Below, in pieces: positions 1 through 20,331 of a stretch of DNA of 25,929 nt. The translations under genes and the position numbers were made by a program. Positions within the stretch are counted from its first letter, which is position 1. The number at the start of each line of letters is the position of its first letter. The DNA is from a virus. Location of the stretch: positions 1-25,929 of the IMG/VR virus record IMGVR_UViG_3300018079_000035, one strand, 5' to 3'. The notes under the pieces are model-generated. The model saw nothing but the letters and a program-made list of their open reading frames with translations, was not told the origin of the DNA and searched no databases.

Positions 1-122
1 GCGCTGGCGGTGGTGGACGAGCCGGTAATGCGACAGACCGAGCATCCGGGGGTGGTTCCAGTGGACAAGTAAAGGTTGATTGGATTCCTCCTGCATCATT
101 GCTGCTATTAGGCGTAGGTTAA
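1..122 (+). CDS. C-terminal end of a glycine-rich phage protein (5' end outside window)
   Basis: The reading frame starting at base 3 is open from the window edge to TAA at 120-122 and encodes 39 visible residues. They begin with a Gly-rich stretch (AGGGGRAGNATDRASGGGSS) and end in a hydrophobic tail (WIPPASLLLLGVG). Gly-rich C-termini of this style occur in phage tail-fibre and other virion-surface proteins, and the next gene starts 3 bases after this stop, so co-translation is likely. A second frame, from base 1 to a TAA at 70-72, is also open, but its residues show no comparable composition, so I prefer frame 3. With only 39 residues visible, the function is a guess. Confidence 0.6.
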   Translation, partial: AGGGGRAGNATDRASGGGSSGQVKVDWIPPASLLLLGVG

Positions 123-125
123 ACC

Positions 126-755
126 ATGTCTCTCCTGTTGTTACTTCGTAATGCCGGCGATGTAACACGGCGAGCGCAAGTTTCCTTCGCTGAACTAGAA
201 GTTCCGAATGGACAACGGCGAGCGCAAGTTTCCTTCGCTGAACTAGAAGTTCCGAATGGTCAGCGCAGAGCACAGGTCTCATTCGCTGAACTGGAAGTTC
301 CGAATGGACAACGGCGAGCGCAAGTTTCCTTCGCTGAACTGGAAGTTCCGAATGGTCAGCGCAGAGCGCAAGTTTCCTTCGCTGAACTAGAAGTTCCGAA
401 TGGACAACGACGAGCGCAAGTTTCCTTCGCTGAACTAGAAGTTCCGAATGGACAACGGCGAGCGCAAGTTTCCTTCGCTGAACTAGAAGTTCCTGACCGT
501 GTTAGACGGGCACAAGTTTCTTGGGCAGAGTTTGAAGTCCCAGATGCTCCCACAACAGATCGGCGAGCGCAAGTTTCCTTCGCTGAACTAGAAGTTCCGA
601 ATGGTCAGCGCAGAGCACAGGTCTCATTCGCTGAACTAGAAGTTCCGAATCAGGATCAAAGACGAGCACAAGTTTCATTTGCTGAACTGGAAGTCCCATC
701 ACTTTCTAGTGACGTTAAGAAGTGGTTTTTCTTCCAGAAAATCTTGAGGCGATAA
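126..755 (+). CDS. Tandem-repeat protein: eleven copies of a 16-residue RRAQVSFAELEVP motif
   Basis: This 209-residue protein has a short hydrophobic start (MSLLLLLRNAGDVT), eleven copies of RRAQVSFAELEVP with linkers (usually NGQ) from residue 15 to 191, and a unique aromatic-basic tail (SLSSDVKKWFFFQKILRR). Copy 8 is divergent (SWAEFEV, longer linker DAPTTD). Each unit carries two Arg and two Glu, so it is charge-balanced. The alternating V-x-F and L-x-V pattern followed by Pro and an Asn-Gly turn suggests one beta-strand plus a turn per unit, hence a stacked beta array; this is inference. I do not recognise a named family. It lies between a Gly-rich protein and a head-completion protein, 1 base before the latter's ATG, so a virion role such as fibre or decoration is likely. 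The upstream Shine-Dalgarno is weak, suggesting coupling to the preceding gene. Confidence 0.8.
   Translation: MSLLLLLRNAGDVTRRAQVSFAELEVPNGQRRAQVSFAELEVPNGQRRAQVSFAELEVPNGQRRAQVSFAELEVPNGQRRAQVSFAELEVPNGQRRAQVSFAELEVPNGQRRAQVSFAELEVPDRVRRAQVSWAEFEVPDAPTTDRRAQVSFAELEVPNGQRRAQVSFAELEVPNQDQRRAQVSFAELEVPSLSSDVKKWFFFQKILRR
168..698 (+). repeat. In-frame 48-bp tandem repeat array, 11 units
   Basis: Units start at 168, 216, 264, 312, 360, 408, 456, 504 (57 bp), 561, 609 (51 bp) and 660 (39 bp, truncated). Most are almost identical even at synonymous sites. Two start variants (CGGCGAGCGCAAG and CGCAGAGC) and two end variants (GGACAA and GGTCAG) occur. The junction GGTCAG followed by CGCAGAGC recurs at units 2/3, 4/5 and 9/10, as expected from unequal crossing-over or gene conversion. 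Unit 8 is the outlier and may be an older copy. Most units contain the interrupted palindrome GAACT-AGA-AGTTC or GAACT-GGA-AGTTC. Confidence 0.95.
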
Positions 756-756
756 A

Positions 757-1647
757 ATGATCCGTCTAATTAAAGTCAGCGAACCACTTGCCGCATTGCG
801 ACAAGTGTGGTTTGATCTTCGTTTGGAGTCAGACGGCATCACACCGGTTTTGACAGAGGCGGGCGGGCAGCCACAGATTTCAATTTCTGGGGCACCCTGG
901 ACCAATGTTGGCATCGGGACATTGACTCATGTTGGAAATGGGCGTTATTTCGCGGTTCTCGCGGATACGTCCGTAGCCAATGCTGATGTATTCATTGACA
1001 CCCGATATAAGGGAACTCTAACCGCTGAAACTCCAGGTGATACCGCCCAGATCGAAGAGTTCGATCACAGCGATATTATGGAGCGGCTGGACCTTACCAG
1101 CGGTTCCTTGACTCCTGGTGTTGGTAGCGGAATCACTGGTAATTATTACGGCACCTTGTTGGAAGCCAATGATTACTTCGACAATCGCCTACACGAGAGT
1201 GCTTGGTATGATGCAGCCGTCGCTGATCGACCAAAAGCACTGCTTGCTGCAACTAGAATTATCAACGCCCTGAATTTCAAGGGTGACAAAGCTACGGTTG
1301 CTGCTCTGTTGGCCAGCAACCCGAACGCTACTGATGAGCAAATTCGTGCAGCCGACGCTGACCAGCCTCTCGAATTCCCAAGAGGCACTGACACGGTAGT
1401 TCCCGAATCAATTAGGATTGCTTCCTACGAGATCGCTCACAGTTTGCTTGATGGGAAAGACCCGGAAGCTGAGCTTGAGAATCTCGGTATCATCTCGCAG
1501 GGATACGAGTCCGTGCGAACCACATACAATCGAAATCAGGTGCCGATTGAGCACCTAATCAACGGCATCCCGAATGCCGCAGCTTGGCGTTATATTCGTC
1601 CGTTCTTACGCGACGAAGACGCCATCAAGATTGCGAGAGTTTCGTAA
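757..1647 (+). CDS. Head-completion/adaptor protein with N-terminal beta domain
   Basis: This 296-residue protein has two parts. Residues about 125-296 contain YYGTLLEANDYFDNRL (130-145), Trp150, a run annotated in relatives as an Ala-rich helix (ALLAATRIINALNF), QPLEFPRG (203-210) and VPESIRIASYEIAHSLL. This order is typical of phage gp6-like head-tail adaptors and of the family often labelled DnaT-like, which fits a connector ring under the portal. Residues about 1-105 look like an extra beta-sandwich (VWFDLRL, then VGNGRYFAVLAD), similar in style to small domains on tail and fibre proteins. The gene starts 1 base after the repeat-protein stop and precedes the scaffold. The family call for the C-terminal part is fairly firm; the role of the N-terminal part is unknown and could be decoration or docking of the neighbouring repeat protein. 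Confidence 0.7.
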   Translation: MIRLIKVSEPLAALRQVWFDLRLESDGITPVLTEAGGQPQISISGAPWTNVGIGTLTHVGNGRYFAVLADTSVANADVFIDTRYKGTLTAETPGDTAQIEEFDHSDIMERLDLTSGSLTPGVGSGITGNYYGTLLEANDYFDNRLHESAWYDAAVADRPKALLAATRIINALNFKGDKATVAALLASNPNATDEQIRAADADQPLEFPRGTDTVVPESIRIASYEIAHSLLDGKDPEAELENLGIISQGYESVRTTYNRNQVPIEHLINGIPNAAAWRYIRPFLRDEDAIKIARVS

Positions 1648-5423: not shown

Positions 5424-6155
5424 ATGGCTCGTATTGAATTGCGAGATTGCACCATCCTGATCCAGGATGGTCTTAGCGGCTCCGCCGCTGTCAACCAAAT
5501 GGGCCTGATGGCTAATGATGTCGATTTCGATGTCAATACCATCGTGCTCAATACGCTGGACACCGATCTGATCCCGGTCGGCGCTCGCTTTACCGTCGCT
5601 GGTGAAACTGGCCTGCCGATCCACACTGTCACCGCTCGAACCCCATCCAGCACCAGCCCGACGACCAACATCGTTTTCACGCCTGCTCTCGCCAGCGCCG
5701 TGGCCGATGATTCCGTCATCACCTTCCTCCCCATTCGGATTGAAGTTAAGATCGGCGAAGGCAACCTGACGTACACCGAGAACAAAGAGTACGAGTATCT
5801 GACGGACAAGGGCAACCTTGATACCGTCCGAGAAGGTAACGAAGTTCCGATGGATGTTGTGATGGACTTCGTTTACGAGTTCGTCCGAACCGGTACGAGC
5901 GAAGTTGTCACTCCTGTCGATGCTCTGAAGAATATCGGCGGGGCTGCCGAATGGGTTAGCTCTTCGAGCGACCCGTGTGAACCGTATAGTGTGGACATTA
6001 TCATTTTGCACGTTCCGCCCTGCGGAACGGCCCAAGATGAGACAACCACGTTCCCCGAGTTCCGGCATGATACCTTGGAATTCGATCTGAGCGCCGCAAC
6101 AATTTCGAGCACCGGCCGTTGCAATGCGACCGAGCCTGAAATCGTGCGGTCGTAA
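5424..6155 (+). CDS. Major tail (tube) protein, copy 1
   Basis: This 243-residue protein is the shorter of two tandem paralogues likely to form the tail tube. Residues about 105-243 include EVKIGEGNLTYTENKEYEYL and VPMDVVMDFVYEFVRTGT, a strand-loop-helix-strand layout typical of siphovirus tube subunits. The C-terminal region has three cysteines (SDPCEPYS, PPCGT, GRCN), also present in copy 2, which might pair or bind metal. Over the last 138 residues the copies differ at 14 positions (about 90% identical), while the DNA differs mostly at third codon positions, so both are probably functional. The Shine-Dalgarno is AAAGGA at 5408-5413. The tube call is supported by its place between the tail terminator and the tail-assembly chaperone. 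Confidence 0.72.
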   Translation: MARIELRDCTILIQDGLSGSAAVNQMGLMANDVDFDVNTIVLNTLDTDLIPVGARFTVAGETGLPIHTVTARTPSSTSPTTNIVFTPALASAVADDSVITFLPIRIEVKIGEGNLTYTENKEYEYLTDKGNLDTVREGNEVPMDVVMDFVYEFVRTGTSEVVTPVDALKNIGGAAEWVSSSSDPCEPYSVDIIILHVPPCGTAQDETTTFPEFRHDTLEFDLSAATISSTGRCNATEPEIVRS

Positions 6156-6191: not shown

Positions 6192-7220
6192 ATGGCTCGT
6201 ATTGAACTTCGAGACTGCACCATCCTTATCCGTGACGGTTTCTCCGGCACCGGTGCTGTGGATGATGCGGCAATTTCTGGTGGCCAGACCAGCATTGAGA
6301 TCGACACCCTGGCCAATCTGCCGAACGCCCGGACTACGGTTCCGATTGGCGCTCGGTTCAACGTCGCGGGCGTAGGCTCGCCGCTGACCACGTTTACGGT
6401 CACTGCTGCCAACAGCAACGAGAAGCAGCAAGTCGTAGTTGATGCCACGTCAGGCAACTTCACGCTGACCTTCAATGGTCAGGTGACGGCCAACATCGCT
6501 TTTGACGCCAATGCTGCTACGGTGCAATCCGCACTGGAAGCCCTCAGCAACATTGCTCCCGGCGACGTGGTTGTGACTTCGCCGATGGCAAGCACATGGA
6601 TCATCGAGTTCCGTGGTGTTTACCTGGGCTTGAATGTGTCCATCCTGATTGGTACGGACGTGGACCTGATGGGCGGTGGCGACACCATTACCATCACGAC
6701 CCCGAGACCGGGCGGAATCACTTGGGAGTTGACGTTTACGCCGGCTCTCGATGGCGGTGATTTGCCGATCAACAACGATGTCATCACGTTCCTTCCTATC
6801 CAGATCGAAGTCAAGATCGGTGAGGGGAACCTGACGTACACGGAGAACAAGGAATACGAATACCTGACGGATCGTGGCAATCTCGACACAGTGCGAGAAG
6901 GCAACGAAGTCCCGATGGATGTCGTAATGGACTTCGTGTATGAGTTCGTCCGAACGGGAACAGGTGAATTGGTCACTCCGGTCGATGCCCTCAAAGGTAT
7001 CGGCGGCGCGTCCGACTGGACAAGCTCTTCGAGCGACCCGTGCGAACCGTACAGCGTGGACATCGTGATTCTCCATGACCCGCCCTGCGGGACTGCGGAG
7101 AATGAGACCACGACTTTCCCCGAGTTCCGGCACGATACGCTGGAATTCGATCTGAATGCTGCAACAATTTCGAGCACCGGTCGCTGCAATGTGACCGAAC
7201 CTGAAATCGTGCGTGGCTAA
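6192..7220 (+). CDS. Major tail (tube) protein, copy 2 with inserted beta domain
   Basis: This 342-residue paralogue of the preceding gene shares its N-terminus (MARIELRDCTILI) and almost the whole C-terminal 138 residues. The main difference is an insertion at about residues 75-180, between the first strands and the common core. It contains a recognisable phage module: FTLTFNGQVTANIAFDANA, then ATVQSALEALSNIAPGDVVV, then IIEFRGVYLGLNVSIL. Modules of this type recur in many phage tail proteins and are thought to be surface-exposed beta-sandwiches. A tube bearing it would display an extra knob, as T5 and lambda tube subunits do with Ig-like domains; the parallel is inference. A strong terminator follows 13 bases after the stop, consistent with tube message ending here. 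Whether both copies enter the same tube, or copy 2 is the decorated major one, cannot be read from sequence. Confidence 0.72.
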   Translation: MARIELRDCTILIRDGFSGTGAVDDAAISGGQTSIEIDTLANLPNARTTVPIGARFNVAGVGSPLTTFTVTAANSNEKQQVVVDATSGNFTLTFNGQVTANIAFDANAATVQSALEALSNIAPGDVVVTSPMASTWIIEFRGVYLGLNVSILIGTDVDLMGGGDTITITTPRPGGITWELTFTPALDGGDLPINNDVITFLPIQIEVKIGEGNLTYTENKEYEYLTDRGNLDTVREGNEVPMDVVMDFVYEFVRTGTGELVTPVDALKGIGGASDWTSSSSDPCEPYSVDIVILHDPPCGTAENETTTFPEFRHDTLEFDLNAATISSTGRCNVTEPEIVRG

Positions 7221-13059: not shown

Positions 13060-13983
13060 ATGACTGCACCCAAACGCGAACAGTTTAAGAACGACGCCTT
13101 CAGCACACTGAACGGCGCTATCGACAACAGCCAAACTACTATTACGGTCACGAGCGGTACAGTCTTTCCGTCCATTGGAAACTTCCGAATTCGTGTCGGT
13201 GACGAGATCATGCTGGTGACGGCCCGTTCCACGAACGACCTAACGGTTGTTCGTGGCCAGGAAGGTACGACGCCCGCCAGCGGTAGTAATGGAGCGGATG
13301 TCGTGCATGTCGTGACGGCCGCCGGCCTGACTCGCTGGGCACAAGATAACGATGGGCTTTGGGGGTATAGCGGCTCCCCACCCCTGGGCAAGATTGTGAA
13401 TGATGCCGGAGACACGCCGCTAGTTGTCTCGGACTTCACTTGGCAAAACCAGGGTTCATCCACGGCCACGGATGAGAATGGCACGATTGTGATGCGTGCT
13501 CCGGCCGCTGCCGGTGAGAATGTTCGATCCTTGATCCGAACTGCGCCTTCGGCCCCATATAGCTACATCTTTGCTATGCAGGGCATTGCAGTCCGTGAAG
13601 GCATTCAACAGTTTGGTGTGGGCTTTCGACAAAGTAGCTCTAGCAAGATGGTGGTGATGCATGTTCTTGCGGATGGTTCTGAGGCTAAACGTGTTGCCGT
13701 CTATAAGTTCAATAGCTCAACGTCATTCAACGGGAGTCTTTTGGCTGTATCTAATCTCTTGCTGTTCAGTCGGTACATTTGGTTTAAGATCGAAGACGAC
13801 AATACCAACATCAAGTTCTCGATTAGCTTTGATGGCATCGCATTCATCGAGATTGCATCGGAAGTTCGCACGACGTTTCTTTTGACAACCGGACCCGATC
13901 AAATTGTTTGGGGCATCAACAATCAGGGTAGTAGTGCCAGACAAATGTTGGCGCGCCTATTCCATTGGAGCCGAGCATCGTGA
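13060..13983 (+). CDS. Tail fibre / receptor-binding candidate, copy 1
   Basis: This 307-residue protein has an N-terminal beta domain (about 1-95) with TLNGAIDNSQTTITVTSG, FPSIGNFRIRVGDEIMLVTA and LTVVRGQEGTTPAS, a module shared by many phage tail proteins. The second part (about 125-307) resembles a concanavalin A-like lectin fold: FTWQNQGSSTATDENG, the core VGFRQSSSSKMVVMHV, YKFNSSTSFNG, IWFKIEDDNTNIKFSISFDG, and a closing strand LARLFHWS. Lectin-like folds at tail tips usually bind cell-surface sugars, so receptor binding is the likely job. It is followed by a GTGA-overlapping paralogue. No catalytic residues of a depolymerase are apparent. The family call is by general pattern; the sugar specificity cannot be inferred. 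Confidence 0.65.
   Translation: MTAPKREQFKNDAFSTLNGAIDNSQTTITVTSGTVFPSIGNFRIRVGDEIMLVTARSTNDLTVVRGQEGTTPASGSNGADVVHVVTAAGLTRWAQDNDGLWGYSGSPPLGKIVNDAGDTPLVVSDFTWQNQGSSTATDENGTIVMRAPAAAGENVRSLIRTAPSAPYSYIFAMQGIAVREGIQQFGVGFRQSSSSKMVVMHVLADGSEAKRVAVYKFNSSTSFNGSLLAVSNLLLFSRYIWFKIEDDNTNIKFSISFDGIAFIEIASEVRTTFLLTTGPDQIVWGINNQGSSARQMLARLFHWSRAS
13967..13970 (+). promoter_or_regulatory. Ribosome-binding site for the GTG start at 13980
   Basis: GGAG lies 9 bases before GTG 13980, which overlaps the previous gene's TGA as GTGA. An in-frame TTG at 13965 is possible but would place this site inside the reading frame with no other upstream site. Confidence 0.65.
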
Positions 13984-14924
13984 GCATTCCTCTGCGAGAA
14001 CAACACAAGAACAATGGTGCCACCACGCTGAATGGTGGCATTGACAACAGTGTAACGTCATTGACGGTAACTACAGGATCGGTACTCCCGTCCACAGGTA
14101 ATTTCCGAATTATTATCGGATCGGAAGTGATGATTTGCATAGCGCGTTCTACTAACACATTGACAGTTATTCGTGGCCAGGAGGGAACTTCGGCGGCTTC
14201 GCACAGTGACACCGACCCGGTGAATATGATTTATACCAACCAAGGCATGACCCGGTTGTTCCAAGATCATGTTGGCTTGTTTGGGTCCGCCAATGTGCCT
14301 CCCATCGGTTTGCTGGTTGCTGATGACGGTGTTACACCACTTGTGGCATCAGACTTTACCTGGGTGAACCAAGATAGTGCATCGGTAACAGATCGTGGTG
14401 GTACGATCTTAATGACTGTCCCCGAGCGCGCCGGAGTCAGTGTGAATGCACAGGAGAGAAGTGCTCCCAGCACACCTTACACTTACCGAATGGCTATGCG
14501 TGCTGGCTGCATCAGTGGTGCCACTGACTCAAAACCATTTTTCGGGGTAGGATTTAGAGAATCCAGTTCTGGTAAACTGGTACTCATCGGTGTCCTCCTG
14601 GAAAAATTCTTCCAAGAAGGCCCACAGGTTAGGATTACTCGATATTCGTCTCCGACCACTGGCTTTACGAACGTCGTCGCTCCGGCCCCTTTGAATATCG
14701 TAGATGATGTAGTTTGGTTCAAGATAGAAAACGACGGAACCAACACAATTTTCTACATGAGCTTTGATGGAATCGAATGGTTGACAGTTCTATCGGAAAG
14801 CAAAACCAGCTATTTTGCCGGCGACCCGGACAAGGTGTGCTGGTTTGGTAACAATCAAGCAAACAATGGCACCGGTTCAACCGAGATGCTGATTGAATTG
14901 GCTCATTGGAGTAAGGGAGAATAA
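13980..14924 (+). CDS. Tail fibre / receptor-binding candidate, copy 2
   Basis: This 314-residue paralogue of the previous gene has the same two-part layout: a N-terminal domain with TLNGGIDNSVTSLTVTTG and LPSTGNFRIIIGSEVMICIA followed by LTVIRGQEGTSAAS, and a lectin-like C-terminal domain with FTWVNQDSASVTDRGG, FGVGFRESSSGKLVLIGVL, YSSPTTGFTN, VWFKIENDGTNTIFYMSFDG and ELAHWSKGE. The copies keep the same framework but differ widely between the strands, where ligand loops would lie. The start is GTG at 13980, overlapping the previous stop by 4 bases (GTGA), which implies translational coupling and balanced synthesis. Two related binders could widen the host range, or form a mixed trimer; neither is demonstrated. 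Confidence 0.65.
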   Translation: MSIPLREQHKNNGATTLNGGIDNSVTSLTVTTGSVLPSTGNFRIIIGSEVMICIARSTNTLTVIRGQEGTSAASHSDTDPVNMIYTNQGMTRLFQDHVGLFGSANVPPIGLLVADDGVTPLVASDFTWVNQDSASVTDRGGTILMTVPERAGVSVNAQERSAPSTPYTYRMAMRAGCISGATDSKPFFGVGFRESSSGKLVLIGVLLEKFFQEGPQVRITRYSSPTTGFTNVVAPAPLNIVDDVVWFKIENDGTNTIFYMSFDGIEWLTVLSESKTSYFAGDPDKVCWFGNNQANNGTGSTEMLIELAHWSKGE

Positions 14925-14927
14925 GTC

Positions 14928-16619
14928 ATGTTCACCGGGAAATTAGGTACAGCGGATTCTCGTCCCGGTAATATGATCCTGGGCGGTGGTCAACCAACTG
15001 GCTCGAATATCTTCGACCGTTCCTTGGAAGACACGATCTCGCTGACGCAAACTTGTACCGTGGTTGGTGGAAGTTTATTGGTGGATGCCAATAGTCCAAT
15101 ATCCCTGGTTAGTACAGCTTCGGCTCCCAAGACATTCCACAAGAGCGCCAGCAGCCCGTTGACTCTAACGAGTGCGGCTGTTGGGGAGGGGCCGGTTAGT
15201 GCTTCCGCCAGCAACGCATTGACGCTAACGGATTCGGCCCGCTCGGGTATCTTTGTTGTCACGGCGGATAACGTCTTAGCGCTCCTGGACTTCGGCTATG
15301 CGGGCCAGACATATATTGTGTCTGCCAGCAGCCCGTTAGCCCTGGTGGGAGTCGGGTCCGGTTTCAATCTCCATGTTTACGCCACAAGTCCGATTTCTCT
15401 GACTGATTTGGGTGAGACACGAGAGAAATACCGGGACGCCATCTCCACGATCACTGCCGACAGCACGGCGACGGCAGAGCAGATTCGTCGAGCGGCATCG
15501 GTCATTAACTTAACCAATACCGCATCTTCTTCAATCACTGGCATAAATGCCGCCAGCCCGCTGACACTGACGCAGGAAGCACGTAATACTAGCATCAAGT
15601 TAATACTTGAAGCTCACGTTATCGAATTCACGCAGGAAGTCACCACAAATATCAAGATGTTGTCCATTACGGACCTTCTTGATGTTCAGCAGACACTTAA
15701 TGTACTGAGACCGCATTATGCTTCAGCTACTAGCCTACTGATTACGACCGAGTTCGTGTTCGATTTGGACACGTTCACGATGGTCGAAGTCACGACCGGC
15801 TTGAGCCATAGTGTGTCTTATGTGCTGATAGGCGTCAAGCAGGCGTCGAATATCATCTCATTCGCTCAATTTGCGAATGGAGCGAATGCTAGAGCAGATG
15901 GTGATTCGGTCTCGGCTACCAGTGCTTTGTCTCTGACAAGCACAGCACTAACAAACAAGACGGCATCGGCTAATAACTCAATTAGCTTAAACAGTGTGGC
16001 TTCGGCCACACTAAGCAACGCGCTGGCTGAGAATGAATTGGACTCACTGGATGTTGAAGCAGACTTCATCATCACTCGGACCAAAGCCGCAACAAGTGAT
16101 CTGGCTTTAACACAGTCGGTGGCTTTTGTCCTAGAGAGGGACAACACGCGATGCACATACTCGCCCTTCGTGGGGGGTACGAGCGACCCAAATGCTCCCA
16201 ATCCTCCGCCGGCCACTTATACGGCAGCGGGCGTGACTGCCGGCTTCCGCCTTCAGTACCCGTCCACAGGTATGGTGACAGATGAGTTGCTCTTGCGGAC
16301 TCCCAACTTAGGGAACCAAGATCGGTTGGCTATGACGAGGATCAACCGCGAAACTCGCGGCGGAACTTTGATCGTTTACTCCGACCCAATTTGGCCAAAG
16401 GTGCAAACGCTCCTAGTGTCATTTAGCGGTTTGTCGAATACACAGGCTCAAGGTTTGTTGACCTTCATGGATACTTATCTTGGCCAGGAGATTCGACTTA
16501 TTGACTGGGAGGATCGTGTTTGGGTCGGTGTCATTACCAATCCGTCTGATCCCATTGTTCAAGACGGACCCGGCTGCCAAATGACGGCCAGCTTCGAGTT
16601 TGAAGGAACCAAAGTCTAA
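14928..16619 (+). CDS. Repeat-rich tail protein with distal-tail-like C-terminal domain
   Basis: This 563-residue protein has two parts. Residues about 33-400 consist of degenerate repeats with a period near 20 residues; cores include ANSPISLVSTAS, ASSPLTLTSAAV, ASNALTLTDSAR, ASSPLALVGVGS, ATSPISLTDLGE, AASPLTLTQEAR and ATSALSLTSTAL. The alternating Leu-x-Leu-Thr pattern suggests short strands stacked into a solenoid or an elongated fibre. Residues about 430-563 (TAGFRLQYPSTGMVTDELLL to FEFEGTKV) form a compact domain that resembles the whole of the next protein: a strand pair, RGGTLIVYSDP, a helix (GLLTFMDTYLGQEI), then EDRVWVGVI and a final FEFEGTK strand. That suggests distal-tail or tail-tip attachment. 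The repeat part would then project outward. Its Shine-Dalgarno AAGGGAGA lies 8 bases upstream. Similar repeats occur in other phage proteins, but I cannot name a family. Confidence 0.62.
   Translation: MFTGKLGTADSRPGNMILGGGQPTGSNIFDRSLEDTISLTQTCTVVGGSLLVDANSPISLVSTASAPKTFHKSASSPLTLTSAAVGEGPVSASASNALTLTDSARSGIFVVTADNVLALLDFGYAGQTYIVSASSPLALVGVGSGFNLHVYATSPISLTDLGETREKYRDAISTITADSTATAEQIRRAASVINLTNTASSSITGINAASPLTLTQEARNTSIKLILEAHVIEFTQEVTTNIKMLSITDLLDVQQTLNVLRPHYASATSLLITTEFVFDLDTFTMVEVTTGLSHSVSYVLIGVKQASNIISFAQFANGANARADGDSVSATSALSLTSTALTNKTASANNSISLNSVASATLSNALAENELDSLDVEADFIITRTKAATSDLALTQSVAFVLERDNTRCTYSPFVGGTSDPNAPNPPPATYTAAGVTAGFRLQYPSTGMVTDELLLRTPNLGNQDRLAMTRINRETRGGTLIVYSDPIWPKVQTLLVSFSGLSNTQAQGLLTFMDTYLGQEIRLIDWEDRVWVGVITNPSDPIVQDGPGCQMTASFEFEGTKV
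15024..16127 (+). repeat. Degenerate protein-level repeats, period about 20 residues
   Basis: About 15 to 18 diverged units of the form A-S-x-P-L-x-L-T-x-x-A are spaced mostly 19-21 residues apart in the upstream-to-middle part of the protein (residues 33-400). The best run is residues 71-150, where four units align at exactly 20-residue intervals (SASSPLTLTS, SASNALTLTD, TADNVLALLD, SASSPLALVG). The repeats are visible in protein but not in DNA, so they are old. Confidence 0.7.
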
Positions 16620-19770: not shown

Positions 19771-20331
19771 ATGGCAAGAGTGGCGAAGGAGAGTATCGAC
19801 AGGTTCTTTGACAATCATCTGCATATCGAGACCAGGACTGTTTACATTGGTGACGGTTCGGATGGTATCGACGACGAGACAAGCCGGAACGTCATTAAGG
19901 CGTTCCATCTCATGCAGTCGGCAGACAAAGAAAAGCCTATCACCGTTTACATCAACAGCTTTGGCGGTTGTACGTTTAACGGCATGGCCATATATGATGT
20001 GATGAAGCATTGCCCGTGCGAGATCACAGCGTATGTTCTGGGCTGTGCGATGTCAATGGGATCGGTGATCCTACAGGCGGCCGACGTGAGAATGGCCTAC
20101 CCAAATGCAACCATCATGGTGCATGACGGATCGTGGAAAGTTGAGGATACGTTTCAATCGTTTCACAACTGGGCCGAGTTCACGAAGAAATCCCAGCAAG
20201 CGATGTACCGAATTTACGCGGAACGCTCTGGGCGACCACCGAGCTTCTGGAAGAAGAAGTGCGCCACGGATATGATCCTCACGGCGCAGGAAGCTAAAGA
20301 GTTCGGCTTGATCGACGACATTCTAACATAG
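19771..20331 (+). CDS. ClpP-like serine protease
   Basis: This 186-residue protein belongs to the ClpP fold. It has ITVYINSFGGCTFNGMAIYD (the family's NSPGG-xxxGMAIYD), GCAMSMGSVILQAA carrying catalytic Ser95, TIMVHDG carrying His118, and CATDMILTAQEAKEFGLID carrying Asp167 (ClpP: S-H-D triad). The usual Pro of NSPGG is Phe here. Length is close to that of bacterial ClpP. The ClpP reaction cleaves unfolded proteins inside a tetradecameric chamber fed by an AAA+ unfoldase; no partner is seen in this window. Its place at the end of the virion block differs from that of prohead proteases, which lie before the coat gene. It could trim tail proteins, process the coat, or borrow the host ClpX/ClpA. 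The stop TAG overlaps the first base of the terminator. Confidence 0.85.
   Translation: MARVAKESIDRFFDNHLHIETRTVYIGDGSDGIDDETSRNVIKAFHLMQSADKEKPITVYINSFGGCTFNGMAIYDVMKHCPCEITAYVLGCAMSMGSVILQAADVRMAYPNATIMVHDGSWKVEDTFQSFHNWAEFTKKSQQAMYRIYAERSGRPPSFWKKKCATDMILTAQEAKEFGLIDDILT

Follow-up and report, generated by a model that had tools for sequence, protein, structure and literature searches.

The repeat gene of the window

The window, meaning the whole stretch of DNA analysed, is a 25,929-bp linear virus record, and near its 5′ end it carries an ORF of 209 aa with tandem copies of a unit of the pattern RRAQVS[F/W]AE[L/F]EVP (Table 1). Tandem Repeats Finder detected it as the sole array in the window (167-694, period 48, 10.8 copies, score 589). 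With this and the ORF call, together with the eleven cores located, the eleven-unit repeat ORF described in an earlier note on this DNA is confirmed. That note gave the unit a constant length of 48 bp (16 codons), which applies to eight of the ten steps, the other two being of 19 aa (after the unit at 504) and 17 aa (before the last unit). It also considered the units to be identical in protein and nearly so in DNA. Ten of the eleven cores are RRAQVSFAELEVP, the remaining one (504) being RRAQVSWAEFEVP, and units 1, 2, 4-7, and 9 are near-identical in DNA; however, identity among the cores averages 85% with a minimum of 62%, units 3 and 10 forming a second synonymous type and units 8 and 11 being diverged. 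The junction GGTCAG/CGCAGAGC was counted three times, as previously described, while the unit at 504, regarded then as an outlier, is instead the window unit that best matches the family-wide consensus. Pairs of cores have 4.75 synonymous vs. 0.36 non-synonymous codon differences. With the differences mostly silent, selection seems to act on the sequence of each unit, and the protein looks to be under strong purifying selection.

A change in repeat number, also proposed at that stage, was observed. Two contigs (L007 and L022) that are 96.6-98.4% identical to the window over ~5 kb have an array that is longer by two units (+96 bp) at its 3′ end, which directly supports a recent copy-number change in this lineage. 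Unit number likewise differs among more distant relatives, with a range of 1 to 27. The repeat protein belongs to no named family, in agreement with the note. Its Pfam and PHROG matches (DPC4_N, TrbI, phrog_25866 etc.) were dropped as short repeat or low-complexity hits, almost all of them without a significant single stretch, and a match to a Halorubrum virus was dropped as it lies antisense to an annotated gene. The array protein ends in a short tail; such tails, basic or aromatic, end many related arrays and may serve as the anchor of the array.

Table 1. Features at the 5′ end of the window; strand units are predicted.
Feature	Position	Strand	Remarks
Gly-rich protein gene, 3′ end, between JR gene and array	1..123	+	JR in syntenic contigs at L004:654-1094, L064:10001-10441
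Putative donor-strand array protein, 11 tandem copies of predicted terminal jelly-roll strand	126..755	+	ORF, TRF, relatives
N-terminal lead	126..167	+	MSLLLLLRNAGDVT, conserved in L003/L004/L005/L008
Strand unit 1	168..206	+	RRAQVSFAELEVP
Strand unit 2	216..254	+	
Strand unit 3	264..302	+	Second synonymous type
Strand unit 4	312..350	+	
Strand unit 5	360..398	+	
Strand unit 6	408..446	+	
Strand unit 7	456..494	+	Linker DRV
Strand unit 8	504..542	+	RRAQVSWAEFEVP, family-consensus form; then long linker DAPTTD (543-560)
Strand unit 9	561..599	+	
Strand unit 10	609..647	+	L007/L022 have two added units here
Strand unit 11	660..698	+	
C-terminal tail	699..752	+	SLSSDVKKWFFFQKILRR
Head-tail adaptor Ad1-like gene, downstream of array	757..1647	+	phrog_477 E=5.6e-12

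Gene context and mosaicism

The suggested virion-gene neighbourhood of the array is borne out, with the window encoding an Ad1-like adaptor, a scaffold, a P22-type major head protein, tail tube-like genes, a tape measure and tail genes. Among its other genes is one for a 563-aa protein (14928-16619, plus strand) that has a loose repeat, SASSPLxLTxxA, matches nothing in Pfam or PHROGs and may be a further array of the strand type. There are also two adjacent tail-fibre-like paralogues (13060-13983 and 13965-14924, plus strand) with a common N-terminal module, REQ.KN...LNG.IDNS, and two adjacent tail gene paralogues (5424-6155 and 6192-7220, plus strand; MARIELRDCTILI..), the second of which has an insert resembling major tail protein domains. 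A ClpP-like head maturation protease (19771-20331, plus strand) lies after the tail genes, which is an unusual location.

A more complete view of the upstream region is offered by contig L064, where the order is terminase, portal, a 98-aa protein, a jelly-roll protein (JR, see below), two small/medium proteins, Gly-rich protein, array, Ad1-like adaptor, scaffold, and major head protein, the last two being assigned by homology to the window. The stretch from JR to array is largely 89-99% identical between phages whose portal/adaptor regions are only 60-68% identical (compared were L064:10450-12400 with L068, and window positions 1-490 with L064). This difference suggests that the block is exchanged or conserved as a unit, and with breakpoints in or near JR and array it looks like an exchange cassette. 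Contigs L067 and L068 have no overlap with the window, and one of them comes from the same metagenome as L022; they may come from the upstream region of a close relative of the window's phage.

Related arrays in other viruses

Scans of IMG/VR identified ~25 further contigs with the unit of the window array, with 4-19 units per array in that set. The consensus of this type of unit, designated W, is RRAQVSWAEFEVPNAP, and all eleven window units match the pattern [RA][RQ]A.[VI]S[WF].E[LFM]E[VI]P, their cores all being equally long. Across the family the 13-residue core keeps its length while the linkers vary, the spacing being 16 aa in 89% of 255 steps. Some arrays are pure and others are fused to domains that, judged by eye, have jelly-roll-like or beta-helix-like folds. 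In most arrays the units have diverged in DNA with the protein kept, those of the window being more alike in DNA than the units of any other array measured. Strings of the W-type unit were absent from the papers searched, and scans of bacterial and archaeal genome contigs with the units alone gave no relatives, although such relatives were found with the JR alignment.

A jelly roll that stops before its last strand

Two contigs (L060 and L061) have only a single unit, with which a jelly-roll domain ends (..DLRIRWVTSASGGSPANRRGGAISWAELEVP). A separate gene for this domain, JR, occurs in the contigs with arrays. In L004, which is syntenic with the window, its product stops at ..TDYTDLYLRFVGNKP, just before the strand, and three other genes lie between it and the array. 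The same holds for JR in array contigs with enough upstream sequence, where it ends with ..LRF(V)AN[KQ][PV] just before the strand. The protein is of ~147 aa and starts directly with the domain (MAQFARPS..). As the window breaks off 5′ of the array, its own JR gene presumably lies beyond that end; the gene is present in the syntenic contigs L003, L004, L005, L008, and L064, relatives being 83% identical there.

Viral and genome contigs were searched for JR alone with alignment A2, and the hits were clustered at 90% identity. Among the 71 viral clusters that could be classed, 63 stop at the end of the domain and 8 continue. Of the stopped clusters, 57 have at least 3 kb of downstream sequence. 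When these were examined with a strand matrix derived from arrays, some of which lie on contigs also in the JR scan, 52 showed strands in trans (44 with at least two units in one ORF, up to 27), with no trans strand recognised for the other five. Control ORFs totalling 153,190 aa gave no false positives with the matrix, and 1.38 M shuffled aa gave 1-2 (2 at the looser survey threshold). Trans units almost always follow JR on its own strand, either directly adjoining it or at a distance of up to 5 kb, and the donors occur in unrelated proteins at -1.5 to +5 kb from JR. Array-less phages with a stopped JR often have a lone trans unit in another protein, for instance C-terminally in an ORF of L133 and N-terminally in one of L124, with a further case in L128. 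In six of the eight phage JRs that continue, the unit follows in cis after 5-13 residues, and JRs with one such strand in cis were also identified in bacterial/archaeal contigs (L141-L146, L148). None of the JRs of this type (JR-W) was found in cultured phage records.

Structure prediction agrees with this arrangement. AlphaFold2 modelled the cis JR of L129 (462-968, alignment A3) with a pLDDT of 94.6 and a pTM of 0.89, placing the unit (residues 148-157) as a confident strand within the domain (pLDDT ~97). Foldseek finds carbohydrate-binding module (CBM) families 30, 16, 4, and 6 as the solved folds nearest to the completed JR (PDB 2y6k, 5fui, 2zex, 1wzx; E 3e-4 to 3e-3), with a probability of 1.00 but a TM of only ~0.4-0.5, so that the modelled resemblance is one at superfamily level and not one of membership. 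No sequence matches to JR were found in Pfam, PHROGs, or PDB. Sequence and model identify the unit as the final beta-strand of a jelly roll that resembles those of CBMs.

A second, parallel system

The motif ARVTQ..VEVL (ARVTQxxVEVL), which we took to be similar to the array unit, returned matches in the Caulobacter phage phiCbK, in Brevundimonas phages and in giant phages. In phiCbK, gp316 (69 aa) has three of these strands, designated Q, and the product of the gene after it, gp315, ends in a jelly-roll-like domain stopping at ..VNGMQAGWQVDT. In Brevundimonas phage Domovoi the Q-strands form the C-terminal end of a Gly-rich lectin-like protein, which adjoins the truncated protein. Eight virion proteins of phiCbK have been reported (PMC3556154); they include the product of the tail gene that neighbours the array, and the small proteins are not among them.

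A scan for this second receiver (JR-Q) was performed with alignment A5, A4 being too diverse for the purpose, and yielded ~130 instances, essentially all of which stop within a few residues of the position where the truncated JR-W ends. At least two Q-strands in one ORF are found at 64 of 80 JR-Q loci vs. none of 80 JR-W loci, the Q matrix having been refined on JR-Q loci so that the within-set count is favoured and the zero in the JR-W set acts as the control. W-strands, conversely, are present at 63 of 80 JR-W loci and at a single one of 80 JR-Q loci. Since the strand counts split by JR type and the two profiles align (hhalign probability 96.8), JR-W and JR-Q appear from their sequences to be two related receivers, each paired almost without exception with its own donor strand. 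No clear cis counterpart of JR-Q was found, with a possible one in Sphingomonas phage Lucius, and in several cultured JR-Q phages the strands are diverged or none was recognised.

Other strand-like tandem repeats were noted beside JR-Q, such as ARMSGLVLEAH in Sphingomonas phage Kimi (L237) and VRxVxRNVVYT in Proteus phage Saba (L236), and in neighbouring proteins of Achromobacter phage AchV4 (L233) and of L239 and L244. The motifs across these five loci are SGLVLEAH, VRxVxRNVVYT, AQFAQVL, and SKxxGYAVL, and their sequences possibly represent further donor types. It is also worth mentioning that L172, L178, L182, and L187 have three to seven tandem JR-Q paralogues per phage.

Proposed function and alternative explanations

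The array is probably a polyvalent donor-strand scaffold that would bind truncated JRs and complete them in trans. This reading is favoured because the unit corresponds to the last strand of the cis JR, because JR is truncated just before it, because the two co-occur, because strand and JR types match, and because the copy number changes. JR would be made as a separate protein ending just before its last beta-strand, and each RRAQVSFAELEVP unit of the array would be that missing strand. After translation, the array strands would complete JR subunits in trans, and the eleven-unit chain could hold up to eleven jelly rolls on flexible linkers in the manner of beads on a string. The completed array would serve the virion as a multivalent appendage for adhesion or decoration, which the gene order places probably at the head or neck in the phage of the window, and the predicted fold of JR suggests binding to a glycan or cell surface. 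Slippage between near-identical units would alter the valency by whole units and leave the JR gene untouched.

A first alternative is that the genes are linked without their products interacting, the truncated JR being already a complete domain and the array binding some other host or virion protein through its motif. The genes are often adjacent, and descent alone would give co-occurrence. This nevertheless seems unlikely, as the cis and trans forms behave as alternatives to each other, two JR families each match their own type of strand, and the donors are found in unrelated proteins over the range of distances given above.

Slightly less likely again is the self-stacking beta array envisaged in the earlier note, a self-contained fibre of variable length in which the units fold on one another as a sheet or solenoid with no partner. 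One strand is indeed predicted per unit, as that note had it, and the period is near-constant at 16 aa. However, AlphaFold2 of the window array alone gave no confident repeated beta fold (pLDDT 55.9, pTM 0.44), to which a poor repeat alignment may contribute, and such a low value is as expected in a model of partnerless strands. The Pro-containing linkers (PNAPRR) of other arrays are also unsuited to tight hairpins, and a stacked fibre leaves unexplained both the stop of JR before exactly this strand and the donors with a single strand. What the unit matches instead is the strand missing from the end of the truncated jelly roll that a separate gene encodes. Lastly, a fusion of JR and array in one protein by frameshift or stop-codon readthrough, for which ORFs 4-13 bp apart in some contigs might speak, was rejected as very improbable because in most contigs 0.3-5 kb and often other genes intervene, and a single chain would offer one JR for many strands.

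Returning to the scaffold reading, we lean slightly towards a wider version of it, in which tailed phages widely use tandem donor-strand scaffolds whose n strands complete and order n separate jelly-roll adhesin subunits. Strands and receivers would come in several types, each specific to its partner (W, Q, and perhaps others such as ..SGLVLEAH, VRxVxRNVVYT, and SKxxGYAVL), with valency open to change by array slippage and receivers open to independent swapping. If the scaffold reading is correct, these phages possess a natural and modular display system, in which truncated jelly rolls snap onto a scaffold of strands and the valency can shift by repeat slippage. It would also explain repeat proteins and truncated domains now called hypothetical, tie two gene families together in each of many phages, and provide orthogonal strand/receiver pairs for protein engineering.

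Comparison with known systems

In chaperone-usher pili of the FimA/PapA type, Ig-like subunits lack one strand and each donates one to its neighbour, with the help of a chaperone and an usher. The likeness lies in a beta-sandwich subunit without one strand, which would here also be supplied in trans by another polypeptide. In contrast to pili, the putative donor strands (1-27 in tandem) are located on a separate protein, a CBM-like jelly roll would receive them, and both are encoded among phage structural genes. Alignments A2 and A3 show no N-terminal donor extension on JR, and no chaperone or usher genes were identified by PHROGs near the array, its neighbours being terminase, portal, and adaptor, with no assignment for the others.

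Jelly rolls of the CBM4/6/16/30 type are the nearest solved folds to the completed JR. However, known CBMs are single chains, whereas the phage JR is split and has no Pfam or PDB sequence match.

In the cellulosome, tandem docking sites on one polypeptide, the scaffoldin, display many copies of a separately encoded partner. The proposed array resembles it as one chain with tandem docking sites for a separately encoded partner, but its docking element would be a single beta-strand completing the fold of the partner and not a cohesin domain; neither array nor JR has cohesin or dockerin matches in Pfam.

A likeness in layout is with phiCbK gp316/gp315 (YP_006987998/YP_006987999) and the Brevundimonas "lectin-like domain protein" and its neighbour, which have the same split arrangement with the Q-type strand. 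These differ from the window array in their strand sequence, in having 3-6 units, in their position after the tail genes and in being annotated as hypothetical or lectin-like.

No precedent for donor-strand or strand complementation in phages was found in the full-text literature searched (open papers only). Nor are we aware of any described system in which a scaffold bears donor strands in tandem. Pili already exemplify the physical principle of donor-strand complementation, and cellulosomes that of the polyvalent scaffold. Neither of these families would accommodate a phage scaffold that is built from donor strands in tandem, serves a truncated jelly roll and comes in two strand/receiver pairings. 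Its layout is seen in many other phages, and no description of it was found in open papers.
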